DNA of 38,844 bases, from contig CAIXKQ010000005.1 of the NCBI GenBank assembly GCA_903920065.1, forward strand, positions 1 through 38,844, in the 5' to 3' direction. A program made the translations under genes and the position numbers. Numbering within the stretch: position 1 is the first letter of the stretch; every line of letters starts with the position of its first letter. Shown one piece after another: positions 35,355 through 38,844 of this stretch. This stretch comes from an uncultured Actinomycetes bacterium (lineage in GTDB: Bacteria; Actinomycetota; Actinomycetes; Nanopelagicales; Nanopelagicaceae). The notes below the pieces were generated by a model. The model did not search any database, had not been told where the DNA came from, and was given only the letters and a program-made list of their open reading frames with translations.

Positions 35355-35964
35355 TTGGAACAGTGTTCTTAACCCGTTAGCTCCTGAGATTGAGAAGATT
35401 CTTCAGACAATCTCCAACGATGACATCGCACCAGGTAACGATCGTATATTTGCTGCTTTAGAAATGGATTTGAATTCGGTCAAATGTGTCATTGTGGGAC
35501 AAGATCCTTATCCCACCAGAGGTAATGCACATGGGCTTGCCTTCTCGGTAACACCTGATGTGCAGCCGCTGCCAGCATCACTCAGAAATATCTTTACCGA
35601 ATTAGTCAGTGATTTAGGAGTCGGGCATCCAAAGAATGGCGATCTCTCTCGATGGGTAGACCAGGGCGTTCTTCTTCTTAATCGCGTACTCACAACTAAG
35701 GTAGGTGAAAGCAACGCACACGCAGATATTGGTTGGCAGCAGATAACAGATGCGATTGCTCAAGCTGCAGCGGCACAAGGTGCCATTGCAGTTCTTTGGG
35801 GTAAGAGTGCGCAAGAAATTTCGCATCTTTTCACTCACACTATAGAAAGTGTTCACCCAAGTCCGCTTAGTGCATATCGTGGTTTCTTTGGCAGCAAGCC
35901 TTTTTCTCGTGTTAATCAAGAATTAACTCGCCGCGGAATTTCACCTATCGATTGGTCTCTCTAA
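35323..35964 (+). CDS. ung: Uracil-DNA glycosylase, family 1
   Basis: Excises uracil from DNA to start base-excision repair. It has 213 residues from the ATG at 35323. The water-activating Asp is in VGQDPYPTRGNAHGLAFSV, and the leucine-intercalation motif is HPSPLSAYRGFFGSKPFSRVN near the C-terminus. LLLNRVLTTK lies between. The start is uncertain: a TTG at 35296 gives nine more residues and a GTG at 35344 gives seven fewer. The ATG puts LPVHSSW at the usual place and overlaps the ABC gene by 32 bases. A strong hairpin follows directly after the stop. Confidence 0.93.
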   Translation: MGRDFLPVHSSWNSVLNPLAPEIEKILQTISNDDIAPGNDRIFAALEMDLNSVKCVIVGQDPYPTRGNAHGLAFSVTPDVQPLPASLRNIFTELVSDLGVGHPKNGDLSRWVDQGVLLLNRVLTTKVGESNAHADIGWQQITDAIAQAAAAQGAIAVLWGKSAQEISHLFTHTIESVHPSPLSAYRGFFGSKPFSRVNQELTRRGISPIDWSL

Positions 35965-35966
35965 AG

Positions 35967-36004
35967 CAACAAGGGCCCGCATCTTTCGATGCGAGCCCTT
36001 GTTG
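35967..36004. terminator. Bidirectional intrinsic terminator between ung and purine permease
   Basis: A near-perfect inverted repeat has arms 35967-35983 and 35988-36004 with a four-base loop TTTC. Sixteen of 17 positions pair; the exception is C35977 opposite A35994. It starts 3 bases after the ung stop and ends 12 bases before the permease stop. There is no long T-run on either strand, which is common for actinobacterial terminators. It is the only strong terminator seen in the window. Confidence 0.85.
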
Positions 36005-36016
36005 ACTAAGACTTAC

Positions 36017-37453
36017 TTATCCAACCCAATTGTTGATTGGGGAAGATAGGAAGTAGATCATAAAGAGACCGGAGACAAGAAGAAGCAGCGGATGCACCTC
36101 TTTGCGACGTCCTTGAATCACTCTAATTACTACGTGTGTAACAAAACCAGCACCGATACCCACAGAGATGTTGTAGGTAAATGGCATCAAGATGATGGTA
36201 AGAAATGCTGGAATTGCGATTCCGTAATCTTCCCAATCAATAGCCTTGATCTGCGTCATCATCAAGAAACCAACAATGACAAGTGCTGGTGTAGCAGCCT
36301 CGTAAGGAATGATTGCTACAAGGGGAGCCAAGAATGTGGTGAGCAGGAAGCAGATTCCTGTTACGACAGAGGCCAACCCAGTTCGTGCTCCTTCGCCCAC
36401 ACCAGCTGCTGATTCGATGTAGCTAGTGTTAGATGAAATGCTTCCAGCTCCACCGGCTGCTGCTGCAATAGAGTCAATCAACAAGATGCGATCATTATTT
36501 GGAATGTCGCCATTCTTATTGATCAAGCCTGATTCATGCCCAATAGCAGTAACTGTTCCGACAGTGTCGAAGAAGTCAGAAAGTAGTAGCGTGAAAACCA
36601 GAAGGATCACCGTGATGAGCGGAATGCGATCGAGTGAACCGAATAGATTAAACTGACCGAAGAGTCCGAAATCCGGTGTTCCAACGATCTTATCTGGCAT
36701 CGCCGGAACGTTTAGGCCCCAACCCTTAGGATTAACTTTCCCGGTAGCGCCATCAAAGTTTGGACCAATTTTTAGTGAGGTCTCGATGATTACGGCAACT
36801 ATTGTTGAAGTGACAATGCCGATCAGAATCGCACCCTTGACCTTCTTGATCATCAGACCGATGGTCAGAAATAGACCGAGTGCAAAGACAAGAATTGGCC
36901 AACCAACGAGTGTTCCGCCATCGCCAAGAGTTACTGGTACCGGACCAGAACCTGTCTTGCGAACGAATCCAGCATCGACTAAGCCGATGAGTGCAATGAA
37001 GAGGCCAATACCGACAGAGATTGCAACCTTAAGCTGTGCCGGAACGGCCTTAAAGACTGCAGTACGAAAGCCCGTGAGAACCAATACGGTAATGATCAAG
37101 CCTTCAAGTACGACAAGACCCATTGCATCTGCCCAAGTCATCTTAGAAGCAATTCCGACTGCTACGAATGTATTGAGACCGAGACCTGTTGCAAGCGCGA
37201 GTGGATAATTACCCACAACGCCCATCAGGATCGTAAGAATGCCAGCCATCAAAGCTGTCATCGCTGCGACGAGTGCGAGATTAGGGGCATCTCCGCCACC
37301 TAAGAATTTGCCATCCGCATCTTTTGCAAGTCCGATGATGAGTGGATTAAGGGCGACGATATACGCCATTGTGAAGAATGTGACCAGACCACCGCGAACT
37401 TCGCGACCGACCGTGGAACCACGTTCTGATATTTTGAAGTAGGTATCGAGCAT
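36017..37453 (-). CDS. NCS2 family purine permease (AzgA-like, adenine/guanine/hypoxanthine)
   Basis: Polytopic inner-membrane transporter of 478 residues, normal for the AzgA-like branch of NCS2, probably purine base:proton symport. The N-terminus GREVRGGLVTFFTMAYIVALNPLIIG (about 17-42) is diagnostic. TGLGLNTFVAVGI (about 89-101), the ALTLLLSDFFDTVGTVTAIG-like stretch near 296-312 and SSNTSYIESAAGVGEGARTGL (about 343-363) are the substrate-site segments. Some 12 or more hydrophobic helices are visible. The ATG has AGGAAGG upstream and a 66-base leader may precede it. Which base is carried cannot be told from sequence alone. It points the same way as the YczE-like gene upstream. Confidence 0.92.
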   Translation of the reverse strand: MLDTYFKISERGSTVGREVRGGLVTFFTMAYIVALNPLIIGLAKDADGKFLGGGDAPNLALVAAMTALMAGILTILMGVVGNYPLALATGLGLNTFVAVGIASKMTWADAMGLVVLEGLIITVLVLTGFRTAVFKAVPAQLKVAISVGIGLFIALIGLVDAGFVRKTGSGPVPVTLGDGGTLVGWPILVFALGLFLTIGLMIKKVKGAILIGIVTSTIVAVIIETSLKIGPNFDGATGKVNPKGWGLNVPAMPDKIVGTPDFGLFGQFNLFGSLDRIPLITVILLVFTLLLSDFFDTVGTVTAIGHESGLINKNGDIPNNDRILLIDSIAAAAGGAGSISSNTSYIESAAGVGEGARTGLASVVTGICFLLTTFLAPLVAIIPYEAATPALVIVGFLMMTQIKAIDWEDYGIAIPAFLTIILMPFTYNISVGIGAGFVTHVVIRVIQGRRKEVHPLLLLVSGLFMIYFLSSPINNWVG

Positions 37454-37519
37454 GACCGACCTTCCTAATTTTTTTAGCGAGGGTGTTTGCGACCTCGTGT
37501 GAAATGACGGCTCACAGAC
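37454..37519 (-). promoter_or_regulatory. Possible structured 5' leader of the purine permease
   Basis: This is most of the widest same-strand gap in the window (97 bases). If transcription starts near 37519, the RNA contains ACGG/CCGT and a CGAGG/CCTCG hairpin with a ten-base loop, followed by CTAAAAAAATTAG and then the AGGAAGG Shine-Dalgarno. It does not match the purine riboswitch consensus. Whether it is regulatory is unknown. Confidence 0.3.
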
Positions 37520-37525
37520 CGTGGG

Positions 37526-37531
37526 AAGATA
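37526..37531 (-). promoter_or_regulatory. -10 hexamer TATCTT of the purine permease
   Basis: TATCTT on the minus strand lies in the gap after the YczE-like gene. It is the only clear TANNNT there and would start the message about 66 bases before the permease ATG. Confidence 0.4.
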
Positions 37532-37550
37532 CGCGAACGCTAGTAGGTTC

Positions 37551-38225
37551 CTAGGCGTACTTGTGAGTTAACCGCGCCAAGATACCCAGAAAAATGGCGA
37601 CAGATTGACCTATCAAGAGGGCAAATAGGGCGGTTCCGAGCCCCACTGTGCCCCCGAGGAACCAGCCGATAATCAAGACCGTTACCTCAATGCCCATGCG
37701 CACTCGGCCTACTCGGATGCCAGTTTTGTAGTGGATACCAGTCATGGCGCCATCTCTGGGACCCCGACCGAGTCCACAGGTGATGTAGAGGGCCGAGCCT
37801 AATCCGACGAGTGCGATTCCTATGAAATCAAAGATCACGCCGATAGCAAAGTTGTTCTGCTTCGGAAAAATAATTGTTCCGACCTGAATAAAAGTTGCAA
37901 TGATGACGATATTAGAAATTGTTCCAAAACCAACGCGTTCATTAAGTGGGATCCATAGGAGCATGACGCACACGCTAATGATGAAAGTTGCCCAACCTAT
38001 ACTCAATCCAGTTTTTAGTGTGAGCCCTTGGGCAAAGACGGTCCACGGCGCATTTCCAATCCCGCCTTGAATAAGAAGTGAGTCACCTAAACCAAAAATT
38101 GCTAATCCAAAGAAAAGGATCGCAGTTCGAAGGGGTGTCAGGTCCCAAAGTCCCTTCGCAGTCCATGGAGTTATCGGGACTGTCTTATGTGGACGCAGAC
38201 TCTGGATGATAGATGCAAATTTCAC
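37551..38225 (-). CDS. YczE-like integral membrane protein
   Basis: A membrane protein of 224 residues with about five or six hydrophobic segments. It resembles the YczE/YyaS family of unknown function: LFFGLAIFGLGDSLLIQGGIGNAPWTVFAQGL (about 37-68) corresponds to the family's GxxPWDVxxxG region, and YITCGLGRGPRDGAMTGI (about 147-164) to GxGPRDxLM. The start is GTG at 38225 (MKFASIIQSLRP), chosen because TAGACT ends 6 bases upstream. It is divergent from the DUF554 gene, with overlapping -10 elements. The function is not known; family members have been linked to transport or peptide export only by context. Confidence 0.82.
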   Translation of the reverse strand: MKFASIIQSLRPHKTVPITPWTAKGLWDLTPLRTAILFFGLAIFGLGDSLLIQGGIGNAPWTVFAQGLTLKTGLSIGWATFIISVCVMLLWIPLNERVGFGTISNIVIIATFIQVGTIIFPKQNNFAIGVIFDFIGIALVGLGSALYITCGLGRGPRDGAMTGIHYKTGIRVGRVRMGIEVTVLIIGWFLGGTVGLGTALFALLIGQSVAIFLGILARLTHKYA

Positions 38226-38231
38226 TTGCTG

Positions 38232-38237
38232 AGTCTA
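38232..38237 (-). promoter_or_regulatory. -10 hexamer TAGACT of the YczE-like gene (minus strand)
   Basis: On the minus strand TAGACT ends 6 bases before the GTG at 38225. It shares two bases (TA, 38236-38237) with the opposite -10 of the DUF554 gene. Confidence 0.6.
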
Positions 38238-38241
38238 TAGT
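38236..38241 (+). promoter_or_regulatory. -10 hexamer TATAGT of the DUF554 gene
   Basis: TATAGT, close to the TATAAT consensus, ends 6 bases before the ATG at 38248. It overlaps the divergent -10 of the YczE-like gene. Confidence 0.6.
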
Positions 38242-38247
38242 GGTTAA

Positions 38248-38844
38248 ATGTTTGTAGGCCTCGGAACAGTAATCAATTTACTCACCATCATCGTAGGTGC
38301 TGGTATTGGAATCGCCTTAGGTGGTCGATTACCTAAGAGATCGCAGAAGATGATTACCGATGTTTTGGGACTTATCACCCTATTGGGTGCCACCTCTGCG
38401 TTGTTGCCGTTATGGTCAAGGGACTTTAAGGATTCACTTCCGGATGGATCACCCCTTCTTTTGGTTCTAGCATCCATGCTCATCGGGGGATTACTTGGTA
38501 CCGCTCTGAAGATTGAGAAAAGAGTCGAGAGCTTTGGTGAGAATCTAAGAAAGAAATTTAAGGCATCTAATGAGAGTCCCTTTGTTGAGGGGTTCGTGAG
38601 CGCATCACTTCTTTTCGTTATTGGCCCGCTTGCGATCCTCGGCAGCGTCAGCGATGGCATGTCTCAAGGTTTAGATCAGTTGATTCTCAAATCTTCACTC
38701 GACTTCTTCGCGGCGATGGCATTTGCATCAACCTTGGGGATAGGCGTGATGGCATCAATTATTCCGGTAGGTATCTACCAGGGCTTCTGGACGATAATCG
38801 GATTCTTTGCCGGATCTGTCCTTGATCAATATCAAATCGATGCC
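38248..38844 (+). CDS. DUF554 family membrane protein, 3'-truncated by window end
   Basis: An open frame from ATG at 38248 runs 199 codons to the window edge without a stop. It encodes a hydrophobic protein beginning MFVGLGTVINLLTIIVGAGIG. The DUF554 (YdfK/YqgA-like) signatures are clear: FVEGFVSASLLFVIGPLAILGSVSDG (about 111-136) and LKSSLDFFAAMAFASTLGIGVMAS (about 145-168). DUF554 proteins are about 225-240 residues, so some 30-40 residues are missing. Several membrane segments separate a cytoplasmic basic stretch (about 88-106). The function is unknown. The start is supported by a leaderless -10. Confidence 0.88.
   Translation, partial: MFVGLGTVINLLTIIVGAGIGIALGGRLPKRSQKMITDVLGLITLLGATSALLPLWSRDFKDSLPDGSPLLLVLASMLIGGLLGTALKIEKRVESFGENLRKKFKASNESPFVEGFVSASLLFVIGPLAILGSVSDGMSQGLDQLILKSSLDFFAAMAFASTLGIGVMASIIPVGIYQGFWTIIGFFAGSVLDQYQIDA

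Follow-up and report, generated by a model that had tools for sequence, protein, structure and literature searches.

By sequence criteria, the 22-nt spacer between yczE and a DUF554 gene in a Nanopelagicaceae genome is a probable conserved leaderless bidirectional promoter

Bidirectional promoters have been defined by divergent transcription starts lying 7-25 bp apart (PMC10268837, accessible text), and in E. coli a start separation of 18 bp is commonest, with 10 and 23 bp also common (PMC12825309, accessible text). According to the accessible part of the latter report, two opposing polymerases cannot occupy such a promoter at the same time. At the five E. coli promoters that it tested, basal firing lay below the level of competition, which set in once one direction was substantially activated. 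Among actinobacteria, a leaderless TANNNT signal has been described, and in M. tuberculosis divergent promoters often lie in close juxtaposition (PMC3160421 and PMC3898074, available sections of both). One such divergent pair, Rv1130/Rv1129c, gives rise to two leaderless mRNAs (PMC3898074, available sections). The open-licence literature searched contained no paper combining 'leaderless' and 'Planktophila', and its accessible text held no case of two leaderless genes sharing -10 bases.

The window analysed here is the whole 38,844-nt stretch of DNA from an uncultured Actinomycetes bacterium of the Nanopelagicaceae, whose 1.19-Mb assembly comprises 191 contigs. Close to its right end two genes diverge from a short spacer, with the following features:

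37551..38225, minus strand: yczE, membrane protein YczE family, 224 aa (ORF and NCBIfam NF052291)
38248..38844, plus strand: DUF554 gene, first 199 aa, running past the window end (open frame and PF04474)
38226..38247, no strand assigned: intergenic spacer, the proposed bidirectional promoter, 22 nt, of equal length in 15 of 81 aligned rows
38232..38237, minus strand: -10 element TAGACT of yczE, ending 6 nt from GTG
38236..38241, plus strand: -10 element TATAGT of the DUF554 gene, ending 6 nt from ATG, conserved in the rows with a two-base overlap
38236..38237, no strand assigned: shared TA, with which each of the -10 elements begins, invariant in 15 rows as fixed by the label used to select them
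38226..38231, minus strand: yczE discriminator (-10 to GTG), variable among relatives
38242..38247, plus strand: DUF554 discriminator (-10 to ATG), variable among relatives
38225, minus strand: predicted transcription start of a leaderless yczE mRNA at the first base of GTG, from the 6-nt spacing
38248, plus strand: predicted transcription start of a leaderless DUF554 mRNA at the A of ATG, from the 6-nt spacing

The product of yczE scored 222.5 bits against the family 'membrane protein YczE' (NF052291, cut-off 205) and had no match in a Pfam search, while the neighbouring product matched DUF554 (PF04474, E 9.4e-50) and is 96% identical to its counterpart in Candidatus Planktophila versatilis (L002). 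Both names had been proposed in the initial annotation, and both hold. The window's contig ends within the DUF554 gene; residues 153-199 reappear at 100% identity on contig C4 (G000:C4:4414-4554), and that piece is probably the continuation of the same gene. On the yczE strand, 97 nt after yczE, lies a xanthine/uracil-type permease gene (PF00860, 36017-37453). An Rfam search of 35900-38844 matched no RNA element, so a known RNA element was rejected. Likewise, a sigma-70 scan requiring a -35 box gave no match in 37400-38844, and a standard -35/-10 promoter was ruled out on that ground.

The minus-strand GTG (CAC at 38223-38225) and the plus-strand ATG (38248-38250) are separated by 22 nt. The initial annotation had placed in this gap two -10 elements overlapping by two bases, each 6 bases from its start, and the letters agree exactly: TAGACT and TATAGT, on opposite strands, overlap in the TA at 38236-38237, and a TANNNT stands at a leaderless distance, exactly 6 nt, from the start codon on both sides. 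We examined this spacing in 400 kb of P. versatilis, with genes called by a simple home-made codon model. TANNNT ended exactly 6 nt before the ATG at 19.6% of 235 ATG starts and 7 nt before it at 6.8%, every other distance up to 39 nt accounting for 3.4% or less. Among the 68 genes with TANNNT 6 nt before the start (ATG 49, GTG 18, TTG 1), TAGACT was the commonest hexamer (10/68), and the -35 region held little signal. Judged from this sample, a TANNNT ending 6 nt ahead of the start codon is the chief promoter signal of the Ca. Planktophila lineage. Given the 6-nt peak and the rank of TAGACT, both halves of the spacer read as typical leaderless promoters of the lineage. The two genes, which the initial annotation had called leaderless, probably are so.

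Exact-pattern matches were rejected as proof of conservation, being circular for the core letters. Conservation was therefore assessed on loci picked for the resemblance of their DUF554 proteins, the spacer being disregarded: a DUF554 protein search of genome contigs yielded 142 loci encoding a relative, of which 80 were kept, making 81 rows with the window. A YczE homologue lay upstream of DUF554 on the opposite strand in 78 of the 80 loci, none being found in L074 and L079. Automatic assignment from the start codons and a TANNNT at 5-8 nt divided the rows into overlap-2 (15, including the window), overlap-4 (10), separated (37), far (3) and no pair (16). In 78/81 rows an in-frame YczE start had a TANNNT exactly 6 nt ahead of it (exceptions L070, L074 and L079), a count in which L015 depends on a doubtful TTG start.

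Within the 15 overlap-2 rows the ten-base core spanning both elements showed a mean difference between pairs of rows of 0.026, against 0.533 at the 12 discriminator positions and, at third codon positions, 0.645 in DUF554 and 0.659 in yczE. The discriminators thus vary almost at the rate of third codon positions while the core is nearly invariant in these related freshwater bacteria. The overlap-2 label by itself determines four of the core positions; the remaining six comprise five invariant ones and one variable. Only one of 463 ten-column windows in these rows was as conserved as the core, namely the core itself. It reads AGTCTATAGT in 13 of the 15 rows and differs at the ninth base in L004 and L011, where the palindrome CTATAG (38235-38240 in the window) is broken by loss of its G and both TANNNT elements are intact. 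L015 retains the core, and its yczE frame begins elsewhere. In L009 both full hexamers are present 15 nt apart, each 6 nt from its own start.

The palindrome is not enriched in the window (4 occurrences observed, 5.2 expected), and with its breakage in L004 and L011 this led us to drop CTATAG as a functional unit. The 6-nt TANNNT signature of the lineage, the standing of TAGACT as its commonest hexamer and the conservation of the core in homologues chosen by protein together indicate that both -10 assignments are real signal by sequence criteria; the palindrome is incidental and the elements have only TA in common. The proposal of overlapping divergent -10 elements is upheld by the 6-nt signature and the conserved core, and the overlap taken with its conservation makes a bidirectional promoter, also proposed, the natural reading of the letters. 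The word "symmetric", which the initial annotation had used, is a loose one, since it holds for the common TA alone: the C and the G on either side of it are parts of different hexamers, and it is the G that is lost in L004 and L011.

What the spacer would do can be outlined as follows. A housekeeping-type sigma factor would most likely serve it. Polymerase bound at the plus-strand TATAGT would start at the A of the DUF554 ATG (38248), and polymerase bound at the minus-strand TAGACT would start at the opening G of the yczE GTG (38225), 23 bp away. TA is its own reverse complement, and for this reason two TANNNT elements can overlap by two bases without conflict; on the letters of the motif, overlaps of one or three clash and an overlap of four requires TATA. 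The shared TA would be the tightest back-to-back packing of two TANNNT elements in which no other letter is constrained, and together with a 6-nt discriminator on each side it places the predicted start sites 23 bp from each other. The site would hold a single polymerase at a time, and basal firing is probably too sparse for this to matter, so that both genes would be expected at modest, largely independent levels. Further regulation is provisionally taken as absent. We consider it highly probable that the 22-nt spacer is one bidirectional promoter giving two leaderless mRNAs at modest and largely independent levels. The geometry, the 6-nt leaderless signal, the conservation of the core and the gene identities, on which this explanation builds, were observed directly. 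What counts against it is that row selection determined four of the core positions, that the scan requiring a -35 box found no promoter, and that many relatives have elements that do not overlap.

We also surveyed 1.2 Mb of sequence, drawn from three g1 genomes, for divergent gene pairs, again with home-made gene calling. TANNNT stood 6-7 nt from both starts in 28 of 129 divergent pairs, and four decoy motifs gave 1, 0, 0 and 0. Thirteen of the 28 were close pairs, and among these the two-base overlap with a shared TA was the commonest form (5/13); a stricter shared-TA count, 3/52, had omitted one pair through its start-codon limit, the limits of the 129-pair survey being wider. Two shared-TA pairs of P. 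versatilis were each traced in 14 g1 genomes. They adjoin genes that we take, from their protein sequences, to be NDH-2-like and PgsA-like. Beside the NDH-2-like gene the core AGTCTANNCT was found in 14/14 genomes (L172-L185), the start of that gene being impossible to place in L185. Beside the PgsA-like gene ANNNTANNNT was kept in 14/14 (L186-L199), usually 7 nt from the starts, with no plus-strand start at that distance in L195 and L196.

These recurrent short leaderless divergent spacers in the genus (13 close pairs of 129, 5 with shared TA) are what would be expected if two ordinary promoters had come to overlap through genome streamlining, the overlap being without consequence. This account departs from the bidirectional promoter only in denying shared function, and we judge it fairly likely. 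As far as sequence tells, the elements of L009 work apart, in keeping with it. Against it, shared-TA cores at two other pairs have been retained in 14/14 genomes, longer than drift by itself requires, but the function of each hexamer could explain it.

The geometry was also followed across the family. The exact overlap-2 motif with both start codons occurred in 19/296 family genomes, a single time in each; all 19 belong to genus g1 and carry it at this locus, and a reversed control pattern gave 0/296; with the 15 of 81 rows in which the geometry is exact, this answers the expectation that the spacer should be conserved in relatives. The overlap-4 pattern was found in 11/296 family genomes, all g1, at 12 places (two from G256), its control giving one match. 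In g2, g3 and g11 a third geometry appeared as the 15-base word CACTGTTAGAGTYTA, present in 25/49 genomes at 26 places (control word, 1/49), with a YczE match at all 26 loci (L146-L171). Near-identical genomes are included in the genome counts of all three forms. In the CACTGTTAGAGTYTA form the plus element TAGAGT starts within the yczE discriminator and the hexamers cross; the start codons lie 15 nt apart with 6 nt from hexamer to start, for yczE and DUF554 in L167-L169 and for yczE and an UppP-like gene in L164 and L170. The DUF554 gene of many g2 loci of this form has a leader with GGAGG-like letters. From spacer arithmetic the predicted start sites of the three geometries would lie 16, 21 and 23 bp apart.

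On a quick tree with SH-aLRT support only, one starred set of 18 rows holds the overlap-2 rows together with L009, L012 and L015. The overlap-4 rows cluster as a single group with a support of 93, and the labels require two changes for overlap-2 and one for overlap-4. In an order-wide draw of 61 genomes, 59 encode both YczE and DUF554 proteins, which are divergent neighbours within 2.5 kb in 55 of the 59, the remaining four having them on separate contigs. Some far-class loci, as well as L127, L128 and L129, carry an extra plus-strand gene between yczE and DUF554, directly before DUF554; these loci come from several genera. From a sequence motif we tentatively take this gene to be UppP-like. 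Wherever it was lost or gained, the partner of yczE at the shared promoter would change.

The overlap appears to be dispensable for the yczE/DUF554 gene pair, since 40 of the 65 rows in which both elements were assigned have them apart (37 separated, 3 far). The separated class was not accepted outright as proof that the overlap is irrelevant, g2, g3 and g11 having a crossing overlap. That this boundary shows overlap in three geometries across lineages, and that the core is strongly conserved wherever overlap exists, could mean that the overlap is kept as a regulatory switch, in which polymerase competition opposes yczE to its neighbour and activation of one lowers the other. One direction is indeed repressed when the other is strongly activated (PMC12825309, accessible text). 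We regard a switch as unlikely, however: the 37 separated and 3 far rows speak against it, no conserved activator site was seen in the aligned overlap-2 rows, and the core would be just as conserved if each gene needed its own element. Furthermore, the accessible text of PMC12825309 reports no competition at basal activity. The initial annotation was right that two polymerases cannot use the site simultaneously, as the same text states for such promoters. Its further suggestion of mutual exclusion as a means of control is not favoured: basal firing was too low at the five E. coli promoters (PMC12825309, accessible text), and 40 of the 65 rows have their elements apart. Steric exclusion comes with the site itself; as a form of regulation, mutual exclusion may occur, but the findings lend it no support. 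We are likewise doubtful, though somewhat less so, of the broader idea that the three geometries reflect selection for coupling of yczE and its neighbour through a single polymerase site, with start-to-start bidirectional promoters being standard in these streamlined bacteria. The claim that the spacer leaves no room for regulator sites stands insofar as no second window is as conserved as the core, but a putative repressor may cover the core itself. Finally, the position of CTATAG in the middle of a divergent spacer would suit a regulator's palindromic operator in place of two -10 elements, a reading we consider very improbable, since L004 and L011 break the palindrome and keep both TANNNT, other pairs have only TA in common with differing flanks, and the 6-nt distance on either side is that of the promoter signal found throughout the genome.

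The preferred reading, a leaderless bidirectional promoter, makes this locus a clean and conserved natural case in which the promoter is the entire intergenic region, seemingly driving two leaderless genes. Relatives with two-base, four-base, crossing and separate elements form a ready series on polymerase competition, and the arrangement suggests a simple limit on the packing of divergent genes in streamlined genomes. On all the sequence criteria applied, the spacer qualifies as a genuine bidirectional promoter, leaderless and conserved, of an already known kind. It resembles actinobacterial leaderless promoters in carrying TANNNT some 12 bp ahead of the start codon and in its weak -35 signal. 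It differs from the known actinobacterial pairs in that its -10 elements share bases, no such pair being described in the available sections of PMC3160421 and PMC3898074. The likeness to the bidirectional promoters of Warman and Grainger lies in the overlapping -10 elements and in a predicted start separation of 23 bp, which is within 7-25 bp and a common class (PMC12825309 and PMC10268837, accessible text of both). Unlike the E. coli and Salmonella cases, the products of this spacer are predicted to be leaderless, the promoter is the whole intergenic region, and the host is an actinobacterium.
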